Source: Arthrobacter sp. zg-Y238 (lineage in GTDB: Bacteria; Actinomycetota; Actinomycetes; Actinomycetales; Micrococcaceae). Taken from it: a stretch of 64,000 bases of DNA. A program made the translations under genes and the position numbers. The stretch is from the NCBI RefSeq assembly GCF_024385525.1, contig NZ_JANFLU010000005.1, positions 62,001 to 126,000 of the forward strand, written 5' to 3'. The notes below the pieces were generated by a model. The model had not been told where the DNA came from. It ran no database searches and saw only the letters and a list, made by a program, of their open reading frames with translations. Shown here one piece after another: positions 16,586 to 29,754 of the stretch. How positions within the stretch are numbered: position 1 is the stretch's first letter; each line of letters starts with the position of its first letter.

Positions 16586-18361
16586 TCATGAGCGCGGTGC
16601 GGATCGGGGCTGAAGCTGTCTTGCGATGCTGTCCGGAGCATCGACAGTACTGCCGCTAACTTCGGCCGGGTCGCCGTGGATGCTTGAAGCGCCCGGCAGG
16701 GGCGGAGCCGTCGACAGATAGCGGTGACCGGTGGGCGTGGTGATTTCCACGGTGTGCCGCTCCCGCACCGGCGAGCGGAGGTTTTGCCGGTCTTGGTCCC
16801 TGCGGTCCGGAGCTTCGGAACGGTGCGTGCCCGCCGCGAATTCTTTGCTGTTGCCGGGCGGGCCCGGGACCTTTCCAGGTGTCGTCTCGACGACCTGCGC
16901 ACTCCAGCCAGGGGTTTCCTTCGCGTGGTTACAGGCTTCACAGAGACCCTGGATGTTTGTGGCATCGGTCGTCCCTCCGCTTCGGTGCGGCCGGATATGG
17001 TCTTGATGCCTGACCGGTGCGCTGCACCACGGCGTTCGGCAGGTCTGGTCCCTGGCCGTGATGAGCCGGGCCAGGGACGCCGGTACGAAGCGCGCTTTGG
17101 AGTCCATAGCGATTAGTTGCCCGGATGACGGGGCAGTGTAGAGCCGCTGCAGCCAAATACCGGCTGCCGCTGCGAAGCCGCCAGGCCCGGTTGAGCCGGC
17201 AGAGCCGGAGGATCCACTGCACCTATCGTTGCCGTCGGACCCGGTGGGGCCGGTGGGGCCGGCGGCGTCGGTTGAATCTGCGGCGGAATCCGCCGGCGTC
17301 GATCTGCTCGGACCTTCGAGTCCCGCTCCTTTTCGCACAACGGCCCGCGCCCAGCCGGAGGGGACAATGCCGTAGCCGCTCAGATATGCCGGTTCAGCAG
17401 AACCCGCCAGGAGCGTCCGGTCGGTCATGACCAGTTGCACTTCGACGGGAACGTTTCCGGCGCGGGCCTGCCCGGTGATGCGTTCAACCATGGTGTCCGC
17501 CATGATCTGCCCACGCCCGCGCGAATCGCCCCGGGCCCGCAGCGAATCCGCTTGCCGGCTCAGGGCCGCGAAGACCGCTACACCCTGTGCCACCGGCAGG
17601 AGGCCGGTCAGGTACGTCATGGTGTCCGGGGCCGGGCGGCAGGAGACATAACGGTCCGCCTGCGCCTTGGCTGCGCGGCGGAGCAGCGCTTCCTGGTCGA
17701 TGCGGTAGGTAAGGCTGCGGATCTTGCCGAGCAGGCGGCCGTCACCGAGTCCTTCGAGCTTTTCAGGGTCGCCGGCGATTTCCTCATCCACGAGCCGCCG
17801 GTTCTCCACGGACAAGCACGCGGTCTCCCGCACGAGAAGGGTTGCGCGCCATTCACTGATGCGCCCCTCCGACAGGGCCCGGAGTGTGTCGGGCATTTCA
17901 TGGGTCAGGGCCTTGGCGAAACCCAGAATCCGGCCGCCGCGTGCCGGTGATTCACGCCGGGCGAGCGCCACCTGTGCCGCCGCACCCTTGCCCTGCTGAT
18001 CGGCGGGGATTCCTGCCCGCGAATGTGCAGCACGGATCGATGCATCAAGCGCGGCAGCAGCGCGGGCCTGCGCTGCGCTCGCGGCAGCCTTCAGCTCTTC
18101 GAGGCAGCGAAGCCGGTCAATAAGTCCTGCGTCAGAGTCTGCCGCGATACCCGCCAGCGATTCTGCGGAGGAAAGTTCCCGGAGCCAGGAGGTGATTGCC
18201 GTAACGGACCCGGGTGCGGCGGCTAACGCCGTCGCCGTCGGCTGGGAAGCGGATTCAGAAGCAGAAGCCGCCGCAACTGCCCTAGCTGCCCCGCCGGCAG
18301 GTGTTTTCCTGCCGGCGGGCCCGGGATCTTTGCATCGCGCCGGCTGTAATGATTCGAGCAT
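16586..18361 (-). CDS. DUF222 / HNH endonuclease domain protein (13E12 family) with collagen-like insert
   Basis: From ATG 18361 the product is 591 residues. The N-terminal two-thirds is DUF222 (helical, with LSEGRISEWRATLLVRETACL). The C-terminus has an HNH nuclease domain: CRTPWCSAPVRHQDHIRPH, then LCEACNHAKE, giving the paired Cys and catalytic His. Between them is a Gly-Pro-Thr/Gly-Ser-rich stretch (AGPTGPTGSDGND and GSSGSAGSTGPGG). These multicopy genes are typical of actinobacteria and their role is uncertain. An upstream in-frame ATG (18523) would overlap the ychF promoter, so 18361 is preferred. Confidence 0.85.
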   Translation of the reverse strand: MLESLQPARCKDPGPAGRKTPAGGAARAVAAASASESASQPTATALAAAPGSVTAITSWLRELSSAESLAGIAADSDAGLIDRLRCLEELKAAASAAQARAAAALDASIRAAHSRAGIPADQQGKGAAAQVALARRESPARGGRILGFAKALTHEMPDTLRALSEGRISEWRATLLVRETACLSVENRRLVDEEIAGDPEKLEGLGDGRLLGKIRSLTYRIDQEALLRRAAKAQADRYVSCRPAPDTMTYLTGLLPVAQGVAVFAALSRQADSLRARGDSRGRGQIMADTMVERITGQARAGNVPVEVQLVMTDRTLLAGSAEPAYLSGYGIVPSGWARAVVRKGAGLEGPSRSTPADSAADSTDAAGPTGPTGSDGNDRCSGSSGSAGSTGPGGFAAAAGIWLQRLYTAPSSGQLIAMDSKARFVPASLARLITARDQTCRTPWCSAPVRHQDHIRPHRSGGTTDATNIQGLCEACNHAKETPGWSAQVVETTPGKVPGPPGNSKEFAAGTHRSEAPDRRDQDRQNLRSPVRERHTVEITTPTGHRYLSTAPPLPGASSIHGDPAEVSGSTVDAPDSIARQLQPRSAPRS

Positions 18362-18517
18362 GTATTCGAGAGTATGGGCTGCTCGGAGCACTGGCACTGG
18401 GTGTATCGGTGCCTGGGGAAAAGTGCTGGCCTGCATTGCACAGCAGCATCTCTGTGGAGGGACTGTGCGTGTGCGGTCCGAATTCCCGTCGCTGTGCAAG
18501 GTGCAGCCTGCGCCCGG

Positions 18518-18531
18518 TATCATTTACTAAC
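18518..18531 (+). promoter_or_regulatory. Leaderless-type -10 for ychF
   Basis: TATCAT (18518-18523), 8 nt, then GTG 18532. It fixes GTG as start; the frame open upstream lacks ychF similarity. Confidence 0.45.
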
Positions 18532-19617
18532 GTGGCTCTTACTATTGGCATCGTCGGCCTGCCCAACGTCGGCAAATCAACCCTGTTCAATGCGCTGACC
18601 CGCAACAACGTGCTGGCGGCGAACTATCCGTTCGCCACCATCGAACCGAACGTCGGCGTCGTGTCCCTTCCCGACCCGCGGTTGGCCAAGCTGGCCGAAA
18701 TCCACGGTTCGGCGCGCATCCTCCCGGCCACGGTGTCCTTCGTGGACATTGCCGGGATCGTCAAGGGCGCTTCCGAGGGTGAAGGACTGGGCAACCAGTT
18801 CCTCGCCAACATCCGTGAAGCCGAAGCCATTGCCCAGGTTATCCGCGTGTTCGATGACCCCGACGTCATCCACGTGGACGGCAAGGTGGACCCGCGTTCG
18901 GACATGGAAACCATCAACACCGAGCTGATCCTGGCTGACCTGCAGACGCTGGAAAAGGCGATCCCGCGGGTGGAGAAGGAAGTCAAGATCAAGAAGCGTG
19001 ACGCCGCGCAGCTGGCAGCCATGGAGGCCGCCCGCACCGTCCTGGAACGCGGCGACACGATCTTCTCCTCCGTGGCCAGCGACAAGCTGGACATGGAGCA
19101 CCTGCGCGAGCTGAGCCTGCTCACCGCCAAGCCGTTCATCTACGTGTTCAACGTCGATGACGCCGTGCTGGGCAACCCGGACCGCCAGGCCGAGCTGCGC
19201 GAACTGGTGGCACCGGCGGACGCGATCTTCCTCGACGCCAAGCTTGAAGCCGACCTGGTGGAGCTGGACGAAGAAGAAGCCCGCGAAATGCTGGAGATGA
19301 GCGGCCAGGAAGAATCCGGCTTGGACAAGCTTGCACGCGTCGGTTTTCACACCCTCGGCCTGCAGACCTACCTGACTGCCGGCCCCAAGGAAACCCGCGC
19401 CTGGACCATCCGCAAGGGCGACACCGCACCCCAGGCTGCCGGCGTCATCCACTCCGACTTCCAGCGCGGCTTCATCAAGGCCGAAGTTGTGTCCTTCGAC
19501 GACCTGGTCGACGCCGGCTCCATGGCCGAGGCCAAGTCCCGCGGCAAGGTCCGCATCGAAGGCAAGGACTACGTTATGGCCGACGGCGACGTGGTTGAGT
19601 TTAGATTTAATGTATAG
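18532..19617 (+). CDS. ychF: Redox-regulated ATPase/GTPase YchF (Obg family)
   Basis: 361 residues (family about 363). P-loop GLPNVGKSTLFNAL at 8-21, switch DIAGIVKGASEGEGLG, coiled-coil insertion, and a C-terminal TGS domain ending GDVVEFRFNV. It binds ribosomes and hydrolyses ATP or GTP. The final codons (GAG TTT AGA TTT AAT GTA TAG) are AT-rich and unlike the GC-rich codon use of the rest of the gene. The same eight residues are re-encoded at 25863-25886 with host-like codons. I infer that an inserted element replaced the 3' end while keeping the protein intact. Confidence 0.96.
   Translation: MALTIGIVGLPNVGKSTLFNALTRNNVLAANYPFATIEPNVGVVSLPDPRLAKLAEIHGSARILPATVSFVDIAGIVKGASEGEGLGNQFLANIREAEAIAQVIRVFDDPDVIHVDGKVDPRSDMETINTELILADLQTLEKAIPRVEKEVKIKKRDAAQLAAMEAARTVLERGDTIFSSVASDKLDMEHLRELSLLTAKPFIYVFNVDDAVLGNPDRQAELRELVAPADAIFLDAKLEADLVELDEEEAREMLEMSGQEESGLDKLARVGFHTLGLQTYLTAGPKETRAWTIRKGDTAPQAAGVIHSDFQRGFIKAEVVSFDDLVDAGSMAEAKSRGKVRIEGKDYVMADGDVVEFRFNV
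19589..19617 (+). repeat. att-like site 0: recombinant 3' end of ychF
   Basis: ACGTGGTTGAGTTTAGATTT and the following AATGTATAG encode VVEFRFNV-stop. Closely related blocks recur at 20746, 25849, 28081 and 29720. This is the ychF-proximal boundary of the accessory region. Confidence 0.75.
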
Positions 19618-19640
19618 ATTCTTCGTCTGATTCAATAGAA

Positions 19641-19679
19641 ATGCCGCCCTCACCGGAAACATTGAGGGCGGCATTTCTT
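19641..19679 (+). terminator. Intrinsic terminator after ychF
   Basis: 12-bp perfect stem ATGCCGCCCTCA / TGAGGGCGGCAT (19641-19652 with 19663-19674) followed by a T-rich tail. An almost identical hairpin sits after the att-like copy at 25849. Confidence 0.85.
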
Positions 19680-19924
19680 GTTTACGGATCGAGGGTTGTA
19701 TCGTCACCAGCCTTCGCGGATCTCGTGCGGTACCGCCCACGAGCCTTTGAAGAGGAATAGCCAACACGGGTCACGACTTAGTTCGCCTCCGGAGGCCCCG
19801 ATCCCAGCGGACATTTCCGATCGGGGCCTGTAGCTTTGAGCGAACCATTTACTGAAGGCAGGTCGAATGCGATGCTTGGCACCAACGGCTGTTCTCCGTC
19901 CGGCCGACAAATCAAGGAGTCACT
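19680..19924. other. Non-coding leader of the first accessory segment
   Basis: No convincing gene on either strand. It contains a hairpin AGGCCCCGATC / GATCGGGGCCT (19793-19803 with 19819-19829), and AAGGAG just before the next start. The hairpin may be a terminator relic or a 5' UTR structure. Confidence 0.4.
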
Positions 19925-20536
19925 ATGTGGGGAATGGGGCTTAGACGGCGGGCTGTTTGGCCAAAGGAAATGACCATCCGGATTGATGACCACGCGCAGA
20001 ACCTGAAGATGCTTCTCTTTATCCGACAGGCATGGATGATCGCCCAGGACATCGAAATTCCGGAACTCAGCCCTGTGCCTGCGACGGGTGCATCGAAGAT
20101 CCCGGCGTCAGCAAGCCGTGAGGTATGGGATGAACGCTGGAAGCAGCAATGGGACCGCAGCTGGGACTGGTTCAACGTAAGCACAGTTCAAAACGAACCG
20201 ATCTCACAGGAAGAGATGCAAAAACTCTCGAGCCCTGGACAGGAACTCCACCCGATTGTGCCACCGTTCTGGCCCGTCGAATACGGCGAGGATGGGGTAG
20301 ATCTGGTGGCCTTCAATACGTGGGATAAACAGACAACGCCGAACTTTCCTTCCCGGTCCGAACAAGATAGCCTTCCGGCGCTGGTTAAGGCATGGCAAGA
20401 CGGGCTCACGACGATCATCGTACTGCCCTATTTGGGGTACTTTGCGCAGCGTCTCAACGGCAGTCATCTTGTCATCTCAGCTGAAACCAGGAACGACCCG
20501 AAACTCTACACTGAGGCACTCCAAACCAGTCGCTGA
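19925..20536 (+). CDS. Orphan Trp-rich protein of accessory segment 1, function unknown
   Basis: 203 residues, soluble, with no recognised domain. AAGGAG lies 6 nt before ATG 19925, a convincing ribosome-binding site. The protein is rich in Trp, Gln and Pro, with a WDERWKQQWDRSWDWF segment near 68-83 and a hydrophobic TTIIVLPYLGYFAQ segment near 165-178. It is the only gene between the ychF end and the first repeat of that end. Its position as sole cargo suggests an accessory role such as host-phage conflict, but that is inference only. Confidence 0.6.
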   Translation: MWGMGLRRRAVWPKEMTIRIDDHAQNLKMLLFIRQAWMIAQDIEIPELSPVPATGASKIPASASREVWDERWKQQWDRSWDWFNVSTVQNEPISQEEMQKLSSPGQELHPIVPPFWPVEYGEDGVDLVAFNTWDKQTTPNFPSRSEQDSLPALVKAWQDGLTTIIVLPYLGYFAQRLNGSHLVISAETRNDPKLYTEALQTSR

Positions 20537-20745
20537 TACCAAGAAGCGCCCAGGTGGCAAAGGACGGCGGCGCCGCTGGCAGGGTCCGGTGCCGCGCGCC
20601 GGCGGCAGGACCTCCGGCGCGGGAGCGGGGTTCCGTCAGCGGCCCATGCTGCCGCCGCCGGAGACATTCCTCAGATCAACCGGGACGTAACGCTCGGCTT
20701 CCCCTACCTCGAAGGTAATCTGACTGCGAATGTAAGAGGTTGATT
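20537..20745. other. Gene-free stretch before att-like site A
   Basis: Contains a strikingly GC-rich island (about 20555-20660) inside otherwise lower-GC DNA. No supported reading frame. Confidence 0.3.
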
Positions 20746-20783
20746 GGCTACGGAACGTGGTGGAGTTTAGATTTAATGTGTAG
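20746..20783 (+). repeat. att-like site A: repeat of the ychF 3' end
   Basis: 38 bp beginning GGCTACGGAACGTGGTGGAG and ending in TAG. In the ychF frame it reads VVEFRFNV-stop with AT-rich codons. It marks the right end of accessory segment 1. Confidence 0.75.
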
Positions 20784-20808
20784 TTCCTGACTTTCCCGGG
20801 ATGTGCGG

Positions 20809-20840
20809 TGGCCGCTTAGAACATGAGTTCTTAGCGGCCA
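20809..20840 (+). terminator. Hairpin after att-like site A
   Basis: TGGCCGCTTAGAAC (20809-20822), loop ATGA, GTTCTTAGCGGCCA (20827-20840), one mismatch. There is only a weak T tract, and the stop of the small minus-strand ORF lies in it, so it may serve that strand. Confidence 0.5.
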
Positions 20841-21025
20841 TCGTTGTCTGCGGGATCGAAGCCGCAGAAGCGGCAATGCTCTGGCCACGTCCAAAACTGG
20901 AGATCTGGTTCGAGCATGTGTAATCCTGGCCCGGTGGTGGCCCCGCAACTTTCTATGAGTGCGGACCGCTTGCTTGCTGGAAGCTGGGAAAATGCACAAG
21001 GGAATTGGGCAAGTCCTGACTTCAA
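20831..21025 (-). CDS. Possible small CxxC protein, function unknown
   Basis: 64 residues starting from TTG. The C-terminal half reads FWTWPEHCRFCGFDPADNDG, with a single CxxC knuckle that could bind metal or redox partners. It lies 40 nt downstream of the membrane-anchored protein on the same strand, so the two could form an operon. Frame length and the ordered C-terminus favour a real gene, but the start codon is weak. Confidence 0.35.
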   Translation of the reverse strand: MKSGLAQFPCAFSQLPASKRSALIESCGATTGPGLHMLEPDLQFWTWPEHCRFCGFDPADNDGR

Positions 21026-21065
21026 GTCGGTAGCTCCGAAAATTATTTACCGCTTCCACTCCTAC

Positions 21066-21503
21066 TCATCCACGGAGACGTCGTCGGATCTCCGCTTGAA
21101 CTAAATCCGCAAAGTGACGGGGGATCACGGAGTTACAATTTTCCGAACTGAGCCAGTAGGTTCCGCTTAGGCGCCCGTAGTCATTGAAATCTGCTTCCGC
21201 ACGCCACATCGAGAGACCCGTATTGGACCTCACGTGCAGAACTATTGTCATACCCACAACCTCTGAGCGCTTAACCCGAGGCGTTCGTCGTGCGGCTTCC
21301 TGAGCTATTGCACTGAAATCTGCCGGGGTGAGGGCATCGTCAAACTGAAGCGGAGTGCCTTTTCTACGGCGAGTCTCTGCGGCATTACGAAAAATCCCTG
21401 TGGCTACGGCGCCAGCTACGGCCACTCCGCCGCCAAGTAGAACCCGATCCAGTAATCCCAATTTGAATCCAATCTGGGGCTGCGAAGTCGAGTGATTGCT
21501 CAA
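21066..21503 (-). CDS. Membrane-anchored protein of accessory segment 2, function unknown
   Basis: 145 residues from TTG 21503. One hydrophobic segment at about residues 16-36 (LGLLDRVLLGGGVAVAGAVA) precedes a basic stretch (RRRKG) and a soluble alpha/beta-looking domain (residues about 50-145) with RRTPRVKRSEVVGMTIVLHV. Not recognised. The basic residues after the helix predict a cytoplasmic domain. It is on the same strand as the KAP gene but 600 nt downstream of it, so an independent transcript is likely. Confidence 0.55.
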   Translation of the reverse strand: MSNHSTSQPQIGFKLGLLDRVLLGGGVAVAGAVATGIFRNAAETRRRKGTPLQFDDALTPADFSAIAQEAARRTPRVKRSEVVGMTIVLHVRSNTGLSMWRAEADFNDYGRLSGTYWLSSENCNSVIPRHFADLVQAEIRRRLRG

Positions 21504-22110
21504 ACTTCAGACAGGGGCCCTAAGCTAGCTTGTCCGGTGAGACCCTGATGGAATGCCTCTTTACAATGTGGCATGGGCCGTGACCAATATTACAGTGGGT
21601 AGGACTGTAAAGCTGAGCGGCTCTGAAAGCTTCGGAGATCGCTGCCAAAGATGCCACAAACGAGAAATGCAGGATCTAAGCTAAAAAGGCCGCAGAAGTT
21701 CCCAAAGGAAATGTGTCACTATGCTTCGGCGCCAGGTGATGACGCGATAGCTGCTCGTGGTGCGACGTCCGTTTGGGCGTGCGCCGCGAATGCCAGAGCC
21801 GAGTGGCTGCGTTCCAGCGCTCATCGGCATTTTCCTTCTATTCGCCTTAATTACACAGCACTCTTCGCGAGGACACGTGCGAGTCTGAGAAGCCTAACCC
21901 CTATTGGTCCGATGGCCCCGGAAACCGGATGCTCGCTGAGGAAAACCAAAAGTAAAGTGACGGCTCCCGCTTCCCTTCAGGGAGCACAAGCCTTGATGGC
22001 GATCCGAAGCCGGAGCCGCACGTTACATCTTCTCCATGCGGGCGGAACGCTCCCGTTCATCGTGCAGCGCTTCGATCTGCTGTGCACCATCAATTCCGCC
22101 GCCTTCCTGT
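21504..22110. other. About 600 bp without a supported gene between the membrane protein and the KAP gene
   Basis: A plus-strand frame (21651-22274) is open but runs into the 3' end of the KAP gene and has no family resemblance. I see no strong hairpin or repeat. It could hold a decayed gene. Confidence 0.35.
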
Positions 22111-24186
22111 CTAGGACCTCTCCGGTCGCCAGCCCGATAGATACCTGTCCGCGAGCTGAAGAACTTTGTCATCACCCAGCGTCATGCGCACGTTGCTTAC
22201 GACCGTCCTCACTGCATCTTCAGAGCCGAATACTTGGACCAGAAGCTCCCAAGCAAGGCGATCTTCAGCGTTGACCTGTCGAGAGCCCATCGATTGCGAT
22301 CGTGCAGTGGACTTGAGCGAGTGAAGAACTGCTCGTAGGAGTGCAGGATCGTCACTCGGCTTCAGCGGCGTCTTACCGGTGTGAGTTTGAAGGGCGTCAT
22401 AGATGCGCCAGGCGTCCCATTCACGTTCGGGTTCAGTGGGCGGAGCCTTCTTCAGGCGTTCGACAAACTCAGTCTGTATCTGCTCGGCGAACGCTTTGCT
22501 CACGAGCTTGTGGCCGACGCCCTCCTGGTATCCCACGCTGTGGATGAAGTCCAATTGTGAGGAGTAGGTCTCGATGCTCTCGAGAATCTGCGCGACAAGC
22601 GCTTCGCGCACTGCCTCGTCCTCCACACGTCGCAGGAGTCGAAGGACCACGCGGCCAACTGTGATGTCCGGGCGACCGATGTCAAAGAAGCCTCGCTGTT
22701 CCTTCTCTGGGATAGCGTCGATGAGGTTGAGTAGCGTGATCGATCCTGGGGCGATCATGTCGGTCGTGAATTTTGACTCGTAGGAGGTGAGCCCTTCGAT
22801 AACTTCCTCGAGTTCCTCAGGGTCCAAGCCAGTCAGATGCTCCTTGAGCGCTGCTCCATCGCCCAGTAGTTCGAAGGCCCTTTCAGAACTCCGGAACGCG
22901 ACGAGCTCGTCGGGTGCTACTCGATCGAAATAGAGGTTCAGGAAGTCGATGTGTGCCATCCTGTGGGCAGTTCGCCACGTATTGAGCCAGTCATTCCCGT
23001 AGTGATTGTTCTCGATGTACTGCAGCGCGACGGGAAACACGCGGTTAAAGACTGCCCGGATTACATCGTCGTCATCAGGGAAATTTGCGAGCAGCGCATT
23101 CATGGTTGCCTGCGTCCGATCGTCTCTGCGCTCCGTGATGTTTCGTGTGCTCGTCAACTCACGGCGAAGCTTTGACAGCTCCTGCGTGAGTTCGGGACGG
23201 AAAACACGAAGCGCCTCCATCGCCAGGAGGTCGACAAGATTGACTTCATTGCCAAGACTTTTAACCGTGGACCTTGCGGAGATCGCGTAACGAGTGACAT
23301 CACGCAGGTTTGAGAACAGCGGGTCGATTACCTCCCAGTAGACGTCACTCCATCTGTCATCGAGCGTGGCGTTTGCGACGGGGGAGAGGATTCGATTTAG
23401 TTCCTCGAAGACCTGGGATCGAAGCAGTTTTCTGGGTGCCTGCGGAACATCGAAGCTTAGCTGGACGATCTTCTCCAGATACGCCCGTCCTGGGACGCCG
23501 TCGTCGGTGAGGGCTTGCTCCACACGTTCTCGGTCGAAAGCGAGCACATAGATTATGTTCGGGAAACTGGCCGTCAGACGGACGAGTTTGAAGATTTCGC
23601 GGATCTCGATCGTGGTAAGCCGATCGATGTCGTCGATGACGACCACAATCGGTTCTGTGAGCGCCGTGAGCTCCTTAGTTATTTTTTCCCGTACCTTCTT
23701 CGCGCTGAGATCTGCATTGGTCGCGTCTGCCAACCCCACGAGCGCAGTCGCGGTCGCCTCTCCTGCGGTCGCAGCTCCCGGGATGGGAATGAATTGAGAA
23801 ACGGGTTTAAGGATGCCGGCGTACTGGGCGAGCCAGTCCGCTGTCTTACCAAATCGGCTCTGACTGCGGACGTTTAGCTCGGCACCGATTTCGGTGAAGA
23901 AAAAGTTGACGAGCTGGTTCGAACCGGAAAACATCCAAGGGTTGAAGTCAACGACAGTAAGAGTTGGCTCCACCTCAAACTGTTCGCGCATCAGGTTGAT
24001 GAACGAGCTCTTGCCGTGCCCCCACGGCCCCAAGATGCCCACCACCAGTCCTTGGCTCGTGTCGAGCTCTCGGATAGATGCTGCGAAGTCGTGCGCGACT
24101 GGTGCACGTCCGAGATTGTCATCGACCGACGACGCGATTGGTGCGTCTATAGGCGGTTTCTCTTGGGAGTGATCAGTGCCGCTCAT
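22111..24186 (-). CDS. KAP family P-loop NTPase
   Basis: 691 residues. Walker A GPWGHGKSS (53-61), the KAP-typical FNPWMFSG (81-88) and Walker B VVVIDDIDRL (181-190) are clear. There is no evident transmembrane insertion between the two Walker motifs, in contrast to many KAP ATPases, so this member looks soluble. The C-terminal 400 residues are helical and unassigned. KAP NTPases occur in bacterial anti-phage systems as sensors or switches. The gene is divergent from a PIN-like nuclease across 232 bp within a mobile segment, supporting a two-component defence hypothesis. GC content is lower than in the flanking core genes. Confidence 0.88.
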   Translation of the reverse strand: MSGTDHSQEKPPIDAPIASSVDDNLGRAPVAHDFAASIRELDTSQGLVVGILGPWGHGKSSFINLMREQFEVEPTLTVVDFNPWMFSGSNQLVNFFFTEIGAELNVRSQSRFGKTADWLAQYAGILKPVSQFIPIPGAATAGEATATALVGLADATNADLSAKKVREKITKELTALTEPIVVVIDDIDRLTTIEIREIFKLVRLTASFPNIIYVLAFDRERVEQALTDDGVPGRAYLEKIVQLSFDVPQAPRKLLRSQVFEELNRILSPVANATLDDRWSDVYWEVIDPLFSNLRDVTRYAISARSTVKSLGNEVNLVDLLAMEALRVFRPELTQELSKLRRELTSTRNITERRDDRTQATMNALLANFPDDDDVIRAVFNRVFPVALQYIENNHYGNDWLNTWRTAHRMAHIDFLNLYFDRVAPDELVAFRSSERAFELLGDGAALKEHLTGLDPEELEEVIEGLTSYESKFTTDMIAPGSITLLNLIDAIPEKEQRGFFDIGRPDITVGRVVLRLLRRVEDEAVREALVAQILESIETYSSQLDFIHSVGYQEGVGHKLVSKAFAEQIQTEFVERLKKAPPTEPEREWDAWRIYDALQTHTGKTPLKPSDDPALLRAVLHSLKSTARSQSMGSRQVNAEDRLAWELLVQVFGSEDAVRTVVSNVRMTLGDDKVLQLADRYLSGWRPERS

Positions 24187-24418
24187 ATGTGCTACCTATC
24201 CGTCTTTGCCTTGAATTGTGCACGTGCACCCCAGATTCTCGCACATTGACACCCTGATACACTCTCCTTCCTCTCCCCAATATCGAAAGCGGCTGCTCCA
24301 TGGAAAGTTGTATAAATCGCGTGCAGTAATGGAAGCAGTTAGTTGGCAGGTGTCGCGGCTGCGCCGACCGCCCGCACTATATTTCCCAGGATTCCGAAAA
24401 AAGAGATAGAGGTTAGTT
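24187..24418. promoter_or_regulatory. Shared divergent promoter region of the KAP and PIN genes
   Basis: 232 bp, AT-richer than the core. Contains a 12-bp perfect palindrome GTGCACGTGCAC (24218-24229), 32 bp upstream of the KAP start, a candidate operator coordinating both genes. Confidence 0.4.
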
Positions 24419-25726
24419 GTGTCGTTCCCGATAGTTCACCGCCACATGCATGTCTACACGGACGAAGAAGTTAGGAGCTCCTTCGACAAAGGGATCCCGA
24501 TCTACTTCGACACGATGGTGTTTCGAAACCTTTGGAAATTACACAGCAATCCGCGCGCTAGTCTGCTCGAATCTATCCAAAATCTGAGCGAAAGAACCTA
24601 CCTGCCTCATCAGGTGCAAGCTGAGCTGCATCGGCAAGCCTATTCGGAAGCTGTGTTGAATAACGTTCCGCTTCCCGGCTTGTTTCAACCTCGCGGCATG
24701 CTGGAGACAGTGAAGAACTCAGTGCAGGCTGAAGTCAAGAAGGTCCGGCCTCAGGGGCAGAAGGACGGAGTCACAACGGCGCAAATCGAAGGCTTCCAAT
24801 CGGACATCCTGGAAAAGTTCAACGAGCTGAACGAATGGCTTGAAGGGATCGACAGACAGCTTCGGAGCTGGCTCGGCGAGCAAGTTAATGTGACAGCAAT
24901 TCGACGTGGCAGCACGACACACGCACTGTTGGACGAGATCGCCGCAGTGTTCGACGAAGGTCACCTCCTTGCCTCTCCAACAGAAGAGGAATTGGAGGAA
25001 TGGAAAGCGCTGTACCTCAAGCGCGTGAACCAGGACGACCCGGTTGGTCCGGGGAAGACGGACCGAAACAAAGGGTCGATCGACGAAGCAGCGGGCGACT
25101 ACTACGTCTGGAAAGAAATGCTGACGCATTGCAGACAGCGCGGATTTTCGGATGGTTTTATATTCGTCACAGAGGAACGAAAGCCAGATATTTGGGAAGT
25201 CCAGCAGGGCGATAAAGCGCTTCGACGGGTCGATCCTCGTATTCAGCTCGAGTCGCTGGAAGCGACGGGTGGTCCCATGTATGTTCTCACTTTCGACGAA
25301 CTCCTAGAACTCGCTGTCGCAGATGTCGGCGCGCGGGAGATTTTGTCCAATATCTCCCAAGACGTGAAGGTTTCTATGTCAACGTGGAGTGAAAGTGCCT
25401 ACGATGAATTGCTGGAACTCTTAGGCAAGCGTGGGCACGAACGTCAACGCGACGTGATCATCGGAGCCGCCCGTGCGGGTGGATACATCGAACGGGCCGA
25501 GATCGGCAAGATCCTCGGATGGGGCGATGCGAAGAAGCAGCTGACGAGGTTCCGAATGCCTGCTGATCGGGCCAAGGCTGAACTGGTCGAGCGTGGCCAG
25601 GTAAGCCAAGACGCGGGGGACCCACTCTGGGCGGTCTACGATGGCCCAGGGGAGGCGATCGGCTACGCAGTGCCTGATGTCTTCGCGGAGATCCAGCTCG
25701 AGTTGGATGGGGACAAGTCCGAATGA
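24419..25726 (+). CDS. PIN-like nuclease domain protein (PIN_8 type)
   Basis: 435 residues. Acidic PIN positions: D31 in IYFDTMVFRNLW, E69 in PHQVQAELHRQ, D227 in GDYYVWKEML, and FVTEERKPD (249-257). This matches the PIN_8 layout, in which a long helical insertion (about 90-215) splits the fold. The last 110 residues (from about 320) form a separate domain with GYIERAEIGKILGWGDAKKQ, perhaps a winged-helix. Family knowledge: PIN domains are Mg-dependent RNases. It is divergent from the KAP NTPase. GTG 24419 follows AGAGG. Predicted effector of the pair (inference). Confidence 0.82.
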   Translation: MSFPIVHRHMHVYTDEEVRSSFDKGIPIYFDTMVFRNLWKLHSNPRASLLESIQNLSERTYLPHQVQAELHRQAYSEAVLNNVPLPGLFQPRGMLETVKNSVQAEVKKVRPQGQKDGVTTAQIEGFQSDILEKFNELNEWLEGIDRQLRSWLGEQVNVTAIRRGSTTHALLDEIAAVFDEGHLLASPTEEELEEWKALYLKRVNQDDPVGPGKTDRNKGSIDEAAGDYYVWKEMLTHCRQRGFSDGFIFVTEERKPDIWEVQQGDKALRRVDPRIQLESLEATGGPMYVLTFDELLELAVADVGAREILSNISQDVKVSMSTWSESAYDELLELLGKRGHERQRDVIIGAARAGGYIERAEIGKILGWGDAKKQLTRFRMPADRAKAELVERGQVSQDAGDPLWAVYDGPGEAIGYAVPDVFAEIQLELDGDKSE

Positions 25727-25848
25727 CTGGGCGAAGATGAGAAAACGGTAGATCCTGACAACGTCTTACTCCGATGGCTATCAACTTCCATGCTGAACAA
25801 TAACGGTCGTCCCTGACCGGGGCGGCACCCCGTCCTCATAGGTTGTTC
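25727..25848. other. Right margin of accessory segment 2
   Basis: No gene. A small CGGGG/CCCCG hairpin near 25817-25832 may terminate the PIN transcript. Confidence 0.3.
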
Positions 25849-25886
25849 GGCTACGGAACGTGGTTGAGTTCCGCTTCAACGTTTAG
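25849..25886 (+). repeat. att-like site B: repeat of the ychF 3' end with host-like codons
   Basis: 38 bp beginning GGCTACGGAACGTGGTTGAG. The last codons are GAG TTC CGC TTC AAC GTT TAG (EFRFNV-stop), matching genome codon preference. Followed by the same terminator as ychF. Likely the displaced original ychF end. Confidence 0.75.
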
Positions 25887-25909
25887 TCGCTTCGCCTGAT
25901 TCCACAGAA

Positions 25910-25948
25910 ATGCCGCCCTCACCAGAAACGCTGAGGGCGGCATTTCTT
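25910..25948 (+). terminator. Terminator duplicate after att-like site B
   Basis: ATGCCGCCCTCA / TGAGGGCGGCAT with T-rich tail, near-identical to the hairpin after ychF. It shows that the duplicated unit extends about 55 bp past the stop codon. Confidence 0.8.
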
Positions 25949-26054
25949 ATAACCGGGATCGATAGCTTTCGTGAAGTGCATCTTCCGGCGGACTCCTTGG
26001 TCCAGAAGTGCGTTGGATTCCCATGGAACCCTAAACCCGCTCGGACGCAACAGG

Positions 26055-26066
26055 TATTCTGGGGTG
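26055..26066 (+). promoter_or_regulatory. Leaderless-type -10 for the small membrane protein
   Basis: TATTCT (26055-26060), 6 nt, then GTG 26067. Confidence 0.4.
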
Positions 26067-26219
26067 GTGGAAGATGAACTCGGTGCTGAGAAGGAACACT
26101 GGTTGGGTGAGCTCACGGAGCAGGATTTCTTGTTGGGCAAAAGAGCCACTCGAATTATCGATATCCTGCGCGTTCTTGCTTTAGTGGCGTGTGCCGGGAT
26201 AGGTGTATACGTTTTTTGA
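26067..26219 (+). CDS. Small membrane protein, function unknown
   Basis: About 50 residues: an acidic N-terminal half (VEDELGAEKEHWLGELTEQD) and a C-terminal hydrophobic helix (ILRVLALVACAGIGVYVF) ending at the stop. Tail-anchored-like topology is expected. The start is chosen by the promoter signature; a GTG 3 nt earlier or a longer frame from 25971 is possible, but the extra residues have no pattern. It is the first gene of accessory segment 3. Confidence 0.4.
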   Translation: MEDELGAEKEHWLGELTEQDFLLGKRATRIIDILRVLALVACAGIGVYVF

Positions 26220-26239
26220 GTGTTCCCTTCAACACTCGT

Positions 26240-26748
26240 ATGGATTACAGCGGACGGTTCGGCAGGAACGGGATCCCAATGCCCGTTGCAATGAGCGTGA
26301 CGCTCGTTGCCCTTTTTCTTTTCTGGCGCACAGGCAGGAGCCCGATGCTCACCATATGGGGAAAGTTGAACGCGTCGGACTGTATGTTTTCGGATCAGCA
26401 ATTGCGGTGGATTGTGTTGTTGGCCAGTTGGTTATGGCACAATCGATCCTTGGCTAGAAACGGAGCTCGTCCAATTGAGGTGTGCAATCCCGGTGTGGCG
26501 TGCTTGCTGAAACAGGCGGATTTATTAAAGTCTGCGCCCCTTTCGCTGGCTACGTCGACTCAACCCTGGTCGTCGAGACGAGTTCCAGCTTCATGATCTA
26601 TGACTGCCACGGCAACCAGAATGGCCCGATGACAAACACGGCCCGGGCGATTAAAGGAGATACGGAGTTGATCACCGCGTATGCTCCGTTGGGGCCGGCT
26701 GACCTGCAGAAGGCCTTAGTGGAAGGAATGAACGGTGCCCGCCTTTAA
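26240..26748 (+). pseudogene. Probable decayed gene (membrane-type N-terminus, shifted frames)
   Basis: ATG 26240 opens a frame with a helix (MPVAMSVTLVALFLFW) that then loses protein-like character. A second frame carries another hydrophobic stretch (GLYVFGSAIAVDCVVGQLV), then stops. From 26482 the same frame is open to 26748 with an ordered soluble tail (KGDTELITAYAPLGPADLQ). The pieces suggest one or two genes broken by indels. The last piece overlaps the start of the first lipoprotein copy by 14 nt, so it may once have been translationally coupled to it. No family recognised. Confidence 0.35.
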
Positions 26749-27321
26749 GACACGTATGAGGATCTTCCCGGCCGTGGCTGCCGTGCTCATGATGGGACTG
26801 ACAATGACCGGATGCGCCGGGAATGAGGCGCCGGAGGAGACCATCAGCGCCAGGGAGGGTCGGGACCGGGTGGTTGAACTCGTGTTCAATACCGCCGACC
26901 AGCTCGCGGTCACCGGGTGGTGGCCCCGCAACGGTGCGGCGGCGGCTGATGAGTGCATCCCCAAGAGCCGCAGCGGTATCGAGGATGCAACTGCCAGTTA
27001 TAGCTACGACCGTTGGGCCCCCGTGGAACCGACCATGTTGGGGACGCGAAACGCGTCGCCGAGTATTGGGAGTCCCTTGGTATGAGCGTACGCACGGTGA
27101 ATCCGACAACCCACCCGACTGTCTTCGCCGAGGGTGGTCCCGTCCTCCGGGCTGAATTCGATACTGATGCACCTGAACAGTCGTACAGTATCGGGGCTAC
27201 TGCTCCCTGCTCGCCGGGCGACGCTTGGACCTTGAATGAGGAGGACAGTGCAGAGCGGGATCAAGGCAAAGTCCTCCCGGGAGACGAAGGCCTCGTGCTT
27301 CAGGAAGAGCCTCCGCAGTAA
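26735..27321 (+). pseudogene. Lipoprotein, first tandem copy, frameshifted
   Basis: Starts GTG 26735 after GGAAGG with a lipoprotein signal (LTMTGC, Cys 27). It matches the intact copy at 27412 until the segment ASYSYDRWAP, where one base is missing near 27020. The rest continues in another frame (GTDHVGDAKRVAEYWESLG onward) to a stop at 27321. A single-base deletion relative to the second copy explains the shift, so it could also be a sequencing error or a phase-variable state. The two copies also share sequence just upstream of the start (GAAGGAATGAA) and after the stop (CTCCACGAAGC), defining the duplicated unit. Confidence 0.7.
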
Positions 27322-27411
27322 CTCCACGAAGCGATTACCTCTCCCGGCGCCCCGCCCGCAGGTTCCGGTGGGACCGGCTGGTCTTCTAAAGCCCTTAATC
27401 GAAGGAATGAA

Positions 27412-27993
27412 ATGTCCGCCGCTAAGCCACATATAAGGATCCTCACGGCAGCGGCTTCCGCGCTCATGATGGGAATGACAATAACGGCCTGCGCCGAGAA
27501 GGAGCCCAGTACGGCAATCAGTGCCAGGGAAGGACGGGACCGGGTAGTTGAACTCGTGTTCAATACCGCCGAACAGCTCGACGTCACCGGGTGGTGGCCC
27601 CGCAACGGCGCAGCGTGGGCGCAGGAGTGCACCCCCGAAAGCAGCCATGGACTGGGGGATGCCACTGCCAGTTACAGCTACGACCGCTGGGCCCCTCAAG
27701 GAACGGACCATGTTGAGGACGCCCAGCGCGTCGCCGAGTATTGGGAGTCCCTGGGCATGACCGTACGCACCATAAACCCGACAAGAGACCCGGTCGTGTT
27801 TGGCGAGGGGGGGCCCGTCCTCCGGGCTGAATTCGATACTGATGCACCTGAACAGTCGTACAGCATCGGGGCTACTGCCCCCTGCTCGCCGGGCGACGCC
27901 TTTACCTTGAATGAGGAGGACAGTGCAGAGCGGGATCAAGGCAAAGTCCTCCCGGGAGACGAAGGCCTCGTCCTGCAGGACCCTCCGCAGTAA
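27412..27993 (+). CDS. Secreted lipoprotein, second tandem copy (intact), function unknown
   Basis: 193 residues. Signal peptide with lipobox ITAC (Cys 27). The mature part begins with REGRDRVVELVFNTAEQL and ends with a Cys-containing motif GATAPCSPGDAFTLNEED. A second Cys (NGAAWAQEC) could pair with it. AAGGA lies just before ATG 27412. A surface or periplasmic-face location is expected. Similar proteins are, in my recollection, common as small families in Arthrobacter-like genomes; no function is known. Its frameshifted neighbour upstream shares most residues. Confidence 0.7.
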   Translation: MSAAKPHIRILTAAASALMMGMTITACAEKEPSTAISAREGRDRVVELVFNTAEQLDVTGWWPRNGAAWAQECTPESSHGLGDATASYSYDRWAPQGTDHVEDAQRVAEYWESLGMTVRTINPTRDPVVFGEGGPVLRAEFDTDAPEQSYSIGATAPCSPGDAFTLNEEDSAERDQGKVLPGDEGLVLQDPPQ

Positions 27994-28080
27994 CTCCACG
28001 AAGCAATCCCAACACTGCCCCGGCGCTGAGCGCTGGCCGTCCGTCTACAGTTCTCATTTGGTGTGGAGAAGGGGTTATTC

Positions 28081-28118
28081 GGTTACGGAATGTGGTGGAG
28101 TTTAGGTTTAACGTCTAG
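28081..28118 (+). repeat. att-like site C: repeat of the ychF 3' end
   Basis: 38 bp beginning GGTTACGGAATGTGGTGGAG and ending GTCTAG. Reads VVEFRFNV-stop. Ends accessory segment 3. Confidence 0.75.
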
Positions 28119-28139
28119 CTCGCAACCATTTGTTTGAGG

Positions 28140-28182
28140 AAGGCCCGGGGCGCTTAGTGCATCCCGGGCCTTTCTGTCTTTA
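28140..28182 (+). terminator. Terminator after att-like site C
   Basis: AAGGCCCGGG (28140-28149) pairs perfectly with CCCGGGCCTT (28163-28172), followed by a T-rich tail. Confidence 0.8.
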
Positions 28183-28218
28183 CTGCCTCGACCGGCGTCG
28201 ACCAGCCACCACCACGGG

Positions 28219-28313
28219 CGCTATTCACACGTGTGCTTTTTCACCCGGACCCGACAGAATCGGACCCGGAGAAGTCGGGCGGCGCGATCCTGCGCCGCAG
28301 AGAGTGAATAGCG
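28219..28313. repeat. Inverted repeat upstream of the AraC pseudogene
   Basis: CGCTATTCAC (28219-28228) and GTGAATAGCG (28304-28313) are perfect 10-bp inverted repeats 75 bp apart. Between them lie the palindrome CACACGTGTG (28226-28235) and a GGCGC/GCGCC stem. It may be an old operator or an element end. Confidence 0.45.
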
Positions 28314-28325
28314 GAGGGAATCGCC

Positions 28326-28700
28326 ATGATAGAAATCCTCAACCGCCTCGTCGACGAGATCGAGCAGCGCCTTGGTGAAGAAGACCTCGACATCGACGAG
28401 CTCGCCTGAACGATGGGAACAACGGGTTATCACGCACGCCGCATGTTCTCGGCTGTGGCAGGCATGCCGGTGTCCGAGTACATGCTGCGATGTCGCATGA
28501 CGGTCGCAGCGGCTGACGTGGTCGGGGATGAGGATCTGCTCACCATGGCCCTGCGCTACGGCTACGGTTCGGCCGAGGCCTTCGGTCAGGCGTTCCGTGC
28601 CGTGCACGACGTAAGCCATGGCGACGTACGCCGCGCCGGCGGTCCCCTTCGAGTACATTCTGAAACTCCTGAAACCGTTATGCCCGTTTTAACCCTATAA
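28326..28700 (+). pseudogene. AraC-family regulator (HTH plus truncated effector domain), nonsense mutated
   Basis: ATG 28326 starts an AraC HTH (MIEILNRLVDEIEQRLGEED), interrupted by TGA at 28407-28409 where the family has an Arg codon. The same frame then continues through GTTGYHARRMFSAVAGMPVSEY and LRYGYGSAEAFGQAFRAVH to GGPLRVHSETPE, then stops at 28700. The GyrI-like effector domain that normally follows is missing. A CGA-to-TGA change plus 3' truncation explains it. Remnant cargo of accessory segment 4. Confidence 0.75.
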
Positions 28701-28935
28701 TCTGGCCCTTTCAGAAGCCTCCGGCCGAATGGGTAAATGGGTGCAGGTAGCGCTGTATCACCCGGTCGACTTCCATATGCTGGGTACTCTCTTGTTCTCC
28801 GTGTGGCTATGGATACATTGGAGAATCGCGATTAGGCCGTACAGCAACCTGCCGAGGGAACTACCGAGTGCCGTTTGTTACTGTGGCAGATAACTATGAG
28901 CGTTGCTTTAGAAATGACCAGGGGGAAAATGAAGT
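28701..28935. other. Gap between the AraC pseudogene and the HEPN gene
   Basis: Only a 54-codon hydrophobic frame (28729-28893) is open, without a ribosome-binding site. A GGGGG tract lies close to the HEPN start. Confidence 0.3.
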
Positions 28936-29640
28936 ATGAGCACGGAGTCTAAGGCCAGTTTCGACGAGAATTGGGCCACCATTACGGACCTTATGTCGCT
29001 GACCGGGGATGGGGCTACCACCCATCCTCAGCGGGCAGCACGGAATAAAGCCGCGATGGTTTTTTGCATTACAGCTTGGGAAAGCTATGTTGAAGACTTG
29101 GCCTGTGAAGGTGCGAGGTACCTCGCCGATCACTGCCCCACATTCGATGACCTGCCTTCTCAAACCAAGAGATCGCTTGAACTAGCTGTGACACCTTCGA
29201 AAGGCCCAGGGACGCTGTCGCCGTCAGGAAAGTATCCGCGAGCCATTGCCGGAGATGGCTGGCGCTTGCTTCTTGTGGAGCTGGTCGAGGAATCAGCGAC
29301 AGGTAAGAGTTTCAATACCCCCAGTTCAAAGAACGTCAAGGAACTCTTCACGAAATGGTTCAGTGTTGACGTGACAGAATCCTGGGCTTGGAAAGGATTT
29401 GCCCGTCCCGGACCAGCGCGACGACTTGATGAATCAATCTCTCTTCGAGGTGAGATTGTCCACCGAGGAGGGAAGCCGAATGGACTCAACCAAAATTGGG
29501 TCTACACCTACGGTGAGGTTAATATCCGCCAATTGGTTGCTAAAACGGATGATTGTCTAATTCGATGGATCAATTCCATCACTGAGGAATTTGGCCCTTC
29601 AGCACCCTTCGGAAGCTCGACCCCGCTCATACCGGCGTAG
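28936..29640 (+). CDS. HEPN domain protein (RiboL-PSP-HEPN type), putative RNase
   Basis: 234 residues. The N-terminal helix carries CITAWESYVEDLACEGARYL (44-63), characteristic of the MAE_28990/RiboL-PSP HEPN group. The catalytic RX4H motif is R171-GEIV-H176 in SLRGEIVHRGG. Family knowledge: such HEPN proteins are metal-independent RNases in toxin-antitoxin, abortive infection and other conflict systems. No antitoxin or sensor partner is adjacent; the only neighbour in the segment is a dead AraC gene. Cargo of accessory segment 4. Confidence 0.8.
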   Translation: MSTESKASFDENWATITDLMSLTGDGATTHPQRAARNKAAMVFCITAWESYVEDLACEGARYLADHCPTFDDLPSQTKRSLELAVTPSKGPGTLSPSGKYPRAIAGDGWRLLLVELVEESATGKSFNTPSSKNVKELFTKWFSVDVTESWAWKGFARPGPARRLDESISLRGEIVHRGGKPNGLNQNWVYTYGEVNIRQLVAKTDDCLIRWINSITEEFGPSAPFGSSTPLIPA

Positions 29641-29719
29641 GAAGGCCTCAAACTCTCCGCGTGATGAAGCTCAGCGATCGTTAGCAGTGTCACCGCCCGA
29701 GAAACATGAGGGTTCTTCG

Positions 29720-29754
29720 TCATGGAACGTGGTGCAGTTTAGGGCAGTGTGTAA
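29720..29754 (+). repeat. att-like site D: degraded repeat of the ychF 3' end
   Basis: TCATGGAACGTGGTGCAGTT then TAGGGCAGTGTGTAA. It aligns with sites A-C but has a GAG-to-CAG change and a lost base, so it no longer encodes VVEFRFNV. Probably the oldest insertion boundary. Confidence 0.6.

Follow-up and report, generated by a model that had tools for sequence, protein, structure and literature searches.

Cassette arrays behind ychF in Arthrobacter and a probable attachment site for large serine recombinases in Actinomycetes

The 64,000-nucleotide stretch of Arthrobacter sp. zg-Y238 analysed here (the window; contig NZ_JANFLU010000005.1, positions 62,001 to 126,000) carries an array of gene segments directly behind ychF (18535-19617, plus strand). 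The last codons of this gene are repeated on its own strand in three good copies, which end at stop codons 20783, 25886 and 28118, and in a fourth, degraded copy (29708-29742, 77% to the reference copy). The original prediction, made from the window's sequence, had placed the good copies at 20746, 25849 and 28081 and the degraded one near 29720, with segments of about 1.2, 5.1, 2.2 and 1.6 kb between them and a hairpin after each good copy, and had proposed serial site-specific insertion into a protein-coding attachment (att) site that rebuilds ychF each time. The positions and the hairpins are confirmed, the copy-to-copy spacings from the ychF end onward (1166, 5103, 2232 and 1637 bp) agree with the segment sizes, and serial insertion with rebuilding of the gene is supported by the sequence comparisons below as the best reading. 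The idea that each block is simply a copy of the ychF end holds for its right part, which alone matches ychF; the left ~25 bp form a separate and longer arm.

This arm reads GG(C/T)TACGGAA(C/T)GTGG in all three good blocks and is absent from ychF itself. It extends beyond this pattern (AGAGGTTATTCGGCTACGGAACGTGG in many relatives), and the window's genome contains the exact pattern three times, always at this array, and the reversed pattern not at all. Junction 1 (20735-20783) joins an arm at 20735-20760 to a ychF-type tail at 20761-20783; junction 2 (25838-25886) has its arm at 25838-25863 and a tail with a CGC codon; junction 3 (28070-28118) has its arm at 28070-28095, followed by the tail. 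In the degraded last junction (29708-29754) the arm is recognisable and the tail is broken. The ychF end (19589-19617), like these junctions, lies on the plus strand, and its core is where a block common to genome G016 begins. Within that block a terminator-like hairpin (19637-19679, z -6.1) is carried with the first cassette, and further plus-strand hairpins follow the good junctions at 20794-20855 (z -6.9), 25906-25948 (z -5.9) and 28137-28175 (z -3.6); no significant hairpin was found 3' of the degraded one (z +0.2). A terminator scan limited to loops of 3-8 did not list the array hairpins, which were found by a separate folding z-score test. From the core of junction 2 onward, the DNA is an 84% repeat of the ychF end plus its terminator.

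Cassette 1 (~1.17 kb, 19618-20759, plus strand), which is second in the array of G016, holds a 203-aa open reading frame (ORF; 19925-20536, plus strand) with cluster members in 7 genomes, its own included, and no match in Pfam or PADLOC. Cassette 2 (~5.1 kb, 20784-25862), limited by junctions 1 and 2, encodes a KAP family P-loop NTPase that is PifA-like (22111-24186, minus strand; PF07693, E 2.5e-49; PADLOC PifA, E 7.8e-76) and a PIN-like domain protein (24419-25726, plus strand; PF18476, E 2.8e-21). A tandem pair of related genes occupies cassette 3 (~2.2 kb, 25887-28094): the first copy (26735-27321) is split by a frame change, the second lies at 27412-27993, and their pieces are 76-93% alike. 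Relatives of this cassette in G003 and G019 (87% over 1.4 kb) reach as far as the site. Between junction 3 and the degraded copy, cassette 4 (~1.6 kb, 28119-29742) carries an HTH_18 (AraC-type) fragment (28413-28700, plus strand; PF12833, E 1.9e-11) and a HEPN (RiboL-PSP) protein (28936-29640, plus strand; PF18735, E 4.5e-9).

The repeats are widespread behind ychF. We sampled ychF and 19.5 kb downstream of it in 40 relatives and the window (41 regions, one of them 12.4 kb in all), counting a tail copy at 21/24 matches or more and using reversed sequences as control. Extra copies were found in 28 of the 41 regions, 64 on the ychF strand and 1 on the opposite strand, with none in the control. 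The prediction had proposed looking among relatives for strains with zero, one or several segments: they carry 0 to 12 extra copies, and the segments between the copies differ from one relative to the next. The exact arm was counted in three sets: 9 of 59 genomes (the window's own included) have it, as do 28 of the order's 396 genomes, in 9 of its 109 genera, and the named genome collection has it in 69 stretches, at 72 sites. Its bearers include Arthrobacter, Kocuria, Nesterenkonia, Brevibacterium, Brachybacterium, Demequina, Corynebacterium, Dietzia, Acidipropionibacterium, Cryobacterium and others, genera which we take to belong to several orders of Actinomycetes. ychF is present in 23 of the 69 arm loci, and every one of these has the site 3' of the gene, in the same orientation. 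In the genomes of the ychF-less loci (n=40, checked by contig with L140 left out), 25 of 43 sites lie on the contig of ychF, again all downstream and on the same strand, at a distance of 1.5-21.9 kb. Together, 47 distinct sites share a stretch or contig with ychF (L152 is in both sets); blocks unrelated to ychF, which the prediction had named as counter-evidence, are thus not seen among the sites that can be judged (47/47 downstream, same strand), the remaining 18 of the 43 being on contigs without ychF.

The arm consensus is scored at 13/24 or better by 140 of 178 copies, against 0.24% of random positions; most of the loci behind the 178 copies were chosen by their arm, and the 41 unchosen regions give 36/56. 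Some of the copies lacking a clear arm belong to other arm types. Two arrays, L076 (G031) and L077 (G032), have a second arm type (CGTGTGGG...), which on its sequence suggests another recombinase subfamily using the same site. An origin of the repeats by chance or ordinary duplication has nothing beyond the degraded copy in its favour; it is refuted by the counts, with a strand bias of 64 to 1, a control of 0 and an arm conserved across many genera, and we give it practically no credence.

A large serine recombinase (LSR) gene adjoins this arm. In Brevibacterium casei (L154) a 514-aa LSR gene starts 27 bp from the arm, in Corynebacterium suicordis a truncated LSR (92% over 229-230 aa) stands at the same place with ychF in the same locus, and five further loci retain about the first 58 LSR codons beside the arm. 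The intact 503-aa LSR of G011 (L061), used as query against 111 stretches (41 regions and 70 loci), finds matches in 10, and three LSRs contain both PF00239 and PF07508. Strong LSRs (E 1e-80 or better) occur in 8 of the 396 genomes of the order, an unselected set, and in 4 of 20 in another genome and record set. ychF is on the same contig, with the LSR at most 20 kb downstream, in 9 of these 12 loci overall and in 6 of the 8 unselected ones (G011, G025, G186, G194, G267 and G379); the genomes of the other three, Arthrobacter hankyongi, C. suicordis and Kocuria soli, had been chosen for the arm. The link was not seen in G317 (no ychF in the stretches fetched), G112 (an 11.5-kb contig) and B. 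casei (ychF on another contig), nor for a weak Cryobacterium match (29%) with no ychF in the stretch fetched.

Neither the exact arm (0 contigs) nor, with one exception, the tail-only pattern was found in IMG/VR; the exception is L086/L171, an LSR element with a different arm. Searches of plasmids and phages with the 49-nt site returned one record each, matching only 29 nt of the ychF tail. The 13.8-kb 'Bacteriophage sp.' record MT836021.1 holds an exact 29-nt ychF-tail match at 2335-2363. The LSR protein matched phages (312 records) and plasmids (113) always below 60% identity, at ~24-31% among the matches listed. On these searches a phage or plasmid carrier was rejected.

The window itself has no LSR match (best E 0.18, with two ychF-type LSRs and no Ccr protein as queries), and no LSR of the ychF type was found in its genome. 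The genome's single resolvase is a 200-aa frame outside the window, and its two PF00589 tyrosine recombinases are both on other contigs, two being also the number in 14 of 28 same-genus genomes. That a tyrosine recombinase (XerC/XerD included) or another enzyme built the array, with the LSR link secondary, would fit a genome with two tyrosine recombinases and no LSR-type match. Against it, LSR genes lie next to this arm, and mirror symmetry between the att halves extends over ~25 bp, in the manner of serine integrases. Moreover, no PF00239 match was obtained in the array genomes G009, G018 and G020, each of which has two PF00589 proteins: any mover would have to come from outside, and since a third tyrosine recombinase is lacking, a tyrosine integrase as driver was rejected. 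We regard this explanation as highly improbable and an LSR as the likely enzyme behind the array.

The anatomy of the sites points the same way. In 7 of the 9 LSR-linked loci ychF has acquired a new tail (VEFRHGITSAGQGKK, VEFRHGITSAAQGKK, VEFRSGSASKR, VEFRTGLTSKK, VEFRHGGTSGSGAKK and similar), the tail of K. soli being unread, and the ychF of B. casei, on a contig other than that of its LSR, ends in VEFRSGLTSGGKK. The array arm mirrors these tails at 18 (B. casei), 17 (G011) and 16 (A. hankyongi) of 24 positions, and the window arms mirror them at 13-17/24, compared with 4-8/24 for ordinary ychF tails. Shuffled sequences (n=180000) score 5.8 on average (sd 2.1) and only 4 reach 16; a sliding-offset test agrees (shuffles 8.6 +/- 1.5, maximum 15). 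Because the new tails mirror the array arm, we read the arm as the P half of attP and the new tail as its P' half. Junction by junction, the P arms score 13-16/24 (junction 1), 15-17/24 (junction 2) and 15-16/24 (junction 3) to the three closest P' halves, against 6-8, 5-7 and 4-7 to B'. Elements with both ends seen mirror their own halves (G194, 19/24; L171, 14/24). Array tails were also tried as P' halves and rejected, at 4-8/24 to the array and window arms and up to 9 for that of A. hankyongi.

Since an array block consists of P plus the ordinary ychF tail, it is of the attR type (P.B'). Both kinds of hybrid, P with B' and B with P', are present in L171, A. hankyongi and G194. In L171 (16,971 bp) a new-tailed ychF is followed by the LSR and, at the far end, by P plus VEFRFNV; judged by this order it is an LSR element integrated at ychF. 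The record is filed as viral in IMG/VR, yet it starts with ychF and ends with the far att site. The features of an LSR site that the sequence displays are therefore a ychF-linked two-domain LSR, mirror-image attP halves and hybrid junctions. We accordingly consider it probable that the 3' end of ychF is the attB of an LSR family and that the array consists of small non-autonomous cassettes inserted there. To the original prediction this adds that an LSR is the likely enzyme, that most segments are without one and that the blocks are attR-type hybrids. Beyond these pieces, recombinase activity and any role of the cargo are what we infer.

The sequences also bear on an exchange of ychF tails. 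Outside its last 60 nt the window's ychF has 20 CGN and no AGR (AGA/AGG) arginine codons, and the arginine of its tail is AGA. In the Arthrobacter group the ychF tail has an AGR codon in 17 of the 20 genomes that carry copies and in 2 of the 8 that carry none; 2 of these 8 have LSR tails. Array genomes use AGA/AGG and further AT-rich codons in the tail, which the mirror symmetry of the P arm does not explain; such codons may alter the strength of attB. In Corynebacterium, 29 readable ychF ends from 30 loci comprise 15 VEFKFNV, 4 close K variants, 4 VEFRFNV, 3 VEFRFNVT and 3 others. C. suicordis, one of the nine LSR-linked loci, is among the four with VEFRFNV at ychF; Nesterenkonia L089 likewise ends its ychF in VEFRFNV, and both have VEFKFNV at the far site. 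At the ychF end of the window, a B.B'-type site, B would be the host's own and B' would have come with cassette 1.

Cassette 1 itself, which heads the array of the window's genome (G000) and stands second in that of G016, is 95.7% identical over 1174 bp between the two; outside the cores the likeness falls to 24% on the left (65% over the nearest 19 bases, in a forced alignment) and to 35-44% on the right. The rebuilt ychF end would take in the terminator, which lies within the shared block. Brachybacterium, Acidipropionibacterium, Kocuria and Brevibacterium have common 3-kb blocks, 91-96% alike, that reach the core. As the DNA had been divided at the core for the sharing searches, both sides of the site were rechecked: of 23 cross-genus pairs alike on the left (72-98% over the last 100 bp), 22 drop to 15-38% right of the tail, and all 11 pairs alike on the right drop to 20-32% left of the arm. 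A HigBA-like block starts at the core in Arthrobacter, Dietzia, Gulosibacter, Acidipropionibacterium, Brachybacterium, Brevibacterium, Paeniglutamicibacter and Demequina; in Arthrobacter and Demequina the match covers no more than 124-169 bp. Pfam confirms HigB in two such blocks. In L201 and L205 (Corynebacterium) the start of this block (CGTTATTGACG) stands immediately 3' of ychF.

Several of these observations could also have been left by a fossil array, in which the segments would be decayed remains of separate autonomous LSR insertions that have lost the LSR and P' tail and now move only by homologous recombination. The ~58-codon LSR remnants adjoin P arms, the far site beside the LSR is broken in G011 and A. 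hankyongi, the shared 3-kb blocks begin inside segments, the window's genome has no LSR-type match and its last junction is degraded. Against such decay stand an LSR-less cassette that occupies different places in two arrays and is bounded by cores on either side, the LSR-less HigBA-like blocks that begin at the core in eight genera (two over the short match only), and the P.B' layout shared by 140 of 178 copies, an unlikely outcome of independent deletions. We hold a fossil origin to be rather unlikely, though a possibility of some substance.

Segments between neighbouring sites less than 12 kb apart (n=131) have a median length of 1215 bp, and 86 are shorter than 2 kb. Their 289 ORFs fall into 235 clusters (these counts leave out 7 duplicate loci). 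Among 94 representatives of the 122 ORF-bearing segments, Pfam recognises 88 families and PADLOC 136 models, each of them limited to 3 members at most. rRNA adenine dimethylase and aminoglycoside adenylyltransferase-like families were each matched once in one cargo set (A1). The window has 0 Rfam matches in a scan not specific to attC-type folds. Upstream of ychF, in the opposite orientation, lies a 645-aa ORF (16586-18523, minus strand) that presumably is a DUF222/HNH (13E12-type) protein.

How would cassettes without a recombinase accumulate? An LSR element would enter by attP x attB, giving ychF a new tail (B.P', attL) and leaving P.B' (attR) at its far end. The array junctions are such P.B' sites, and ychF in arrays is B.B' again, a possible attB. 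As a relay, the helper element could then excise between its own attL and a more distal attR, taking neighbouring segments along; the composite could insert at the ychF of a new host; and excision between attL and the nearer attR could remove the helper alone, so that B.B'-cassette-P.B' remains. This relay would require just attP x attB and attL x attR, reactions described for serine integrases, and it would explain the LSR-less cassettes, the P.B' junctions, a foreign tail plus terminator at ychF and the remade attB. In B. casei, where LSR, P.B' and HigBA-like cassette stand in a row, the order looks like the composite stage, though ychF is on another contig. That helpers leave cassettes behind in this manner is a tentative proposal.

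Cassettes might instead move on P.B' circles of their own that meet the B.B' of ychF under an LSR acting in trans, with no helper ride. This would likewise remake B.B' at ychF and leave P.B' junctions, and since the A118 integrase and CcrA/CcrB are reported to pair attP with attP (PMC3783163), pairing rules can be loose. However, attR x attB is a non-canonical pairing, and attL and attR are described in the same source as autoinhibited (PMC3783163). Movement in trans thus appears to us an unlikely route.

A number of findings weigh against cassettes moved by an LSR, or against the relay. With serine integrases the usual reactions are restricted to attP with attB and, when a helper factor is present, attL with attR (PMC3783163). 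The farthest copy in 20 Arthrobacter-group genomes has AGR in 9, CGN in 9 and another codon in 2; it is not regularly native, and a rule by which the native tail is always last was dropped on these counts. L228 retains a Corynebacterium-like ychF tail, and a P'-type tail lies within the array of G028. The halves of G267 mirror each other weakly (13, with a shuffle maximum of 15 for sliding offsets). One Dermabacter arm (L230) mirrors no P' (7-10/24), although a P' tail is present, with no LSR match there or in the genome. No clear arm of this type accompanies 38 of the 178 copies, or 20 of the 56 in unselected regions, and the whole site was found in no phage or plasmid record. As to sharing, L126 and L154 are alike on both sides of the site, the HigBA-like cassette coming next in both. 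The 3-kb blocks end at the core rightward, start inside a segment leftward and retain an LSR remnant, and the HigBA-like blocks start at the core and end before the next site. Cross-genus cassettes with both ends at cores were searched for and none was found; both ends at cores are seen for one cassette, within one genus.

Known systems offer partial parallels, the nearest in print being the rlmH elements and the Dehalococcoides ssrA islands described below. Integron cassettes are likewise tandem, small and diverse in cargo; the ychF array differs in that it has no tyrosine integrase and its sites are ychF tails. Pseudo-SCC elements (SCC, staphylococcal cassette chromosome) without ccr exist. 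SCC/SCCmec and the Enterococcus cassette chromosome (ECC), too, are LSR elements that sit in the 3' region of a conserved gene, with direct-repeat att junctions and variable cargo (PMC6222049). They target rlmH instead of ychF and hold ccr-type LSR genes in the element, whereas the window array has no LSR match; the sizes given for ECC run from 21 (PMC6222049), against a median of 1.2 kb here in segments mostly without LSR. The Dehalococcoides ssrA islands (CcrB-like DsiB) are tandem and bounded by gene-end repeats as here, 15 of them are without the integration module, and a 15-bp motif by the repeat differs from the gene, which is the anatomy of P.B' junctions (PMC3146451). They differ in their RNA gene target, their restriction to one genus, their six-gene integration module and sizes overlapping those of SCC (PMC3146451). 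By this comparison, target gene and resident recombinase would set the ychF array apart from SCC, ECC and ssrA islands, the logic appearing otherwise the same.

The A118/LI serine integrase shares the pseudo-palindromic attP, 25-bp half-sites and hybrid attL/attR (PMC3783163), but it belongs to a phage system with one insertion, in contrast to the chains of attR-type sites here. A further parallel is given by cis-mobilizable elements (CIMEs), integrase-less segments between att sites that are moved with a neighbour (PMC3146451). The window segments are att-bounded and without LSR match, yet the CIME label also implies movement with the neighbour, whereas here the helper is proposed to leave cassettes behind, in very small units. 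Pneumococcal prophages also adjoin ychF (PMC8637289, PMC10383233), but at an intergenic position upstream of the gene and not at its coding 3' end, and the passages concerned describe no arrays. Among the papers listed by searches of the open PMC library, none deals with LSR arrays sited at the ychF 3' end (subscription journals and supplements being outside the search).

To our reading, what is new here is the ychF-end site, the miniature LSR-less cassettes and the taxonomic breadth. What the work supplies is a family of LSRs together with matched attP and attB halves and, for the build-up of LSR-less cassettes, a route that can be tested; SCC and ssrA islands raise the same question. More speculatively, the ychF end could be the docking site of an integron-like gene capture driven by serine recombinases in several orders of Actinomycetes, where cassettes of ~0.6-5 kb might be picked up, inserted as composites and left behind by helper-only excision, each time with a rebuilt tail and terminator and a fresh attB. 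One predictable spot 3' of ychF is where many actinobacteria seem to gather exchangeable genes, defence-like, toxin-antitoxin, metabolic and unknown, which annotation leaves as neighbours of a housekeeping gene.

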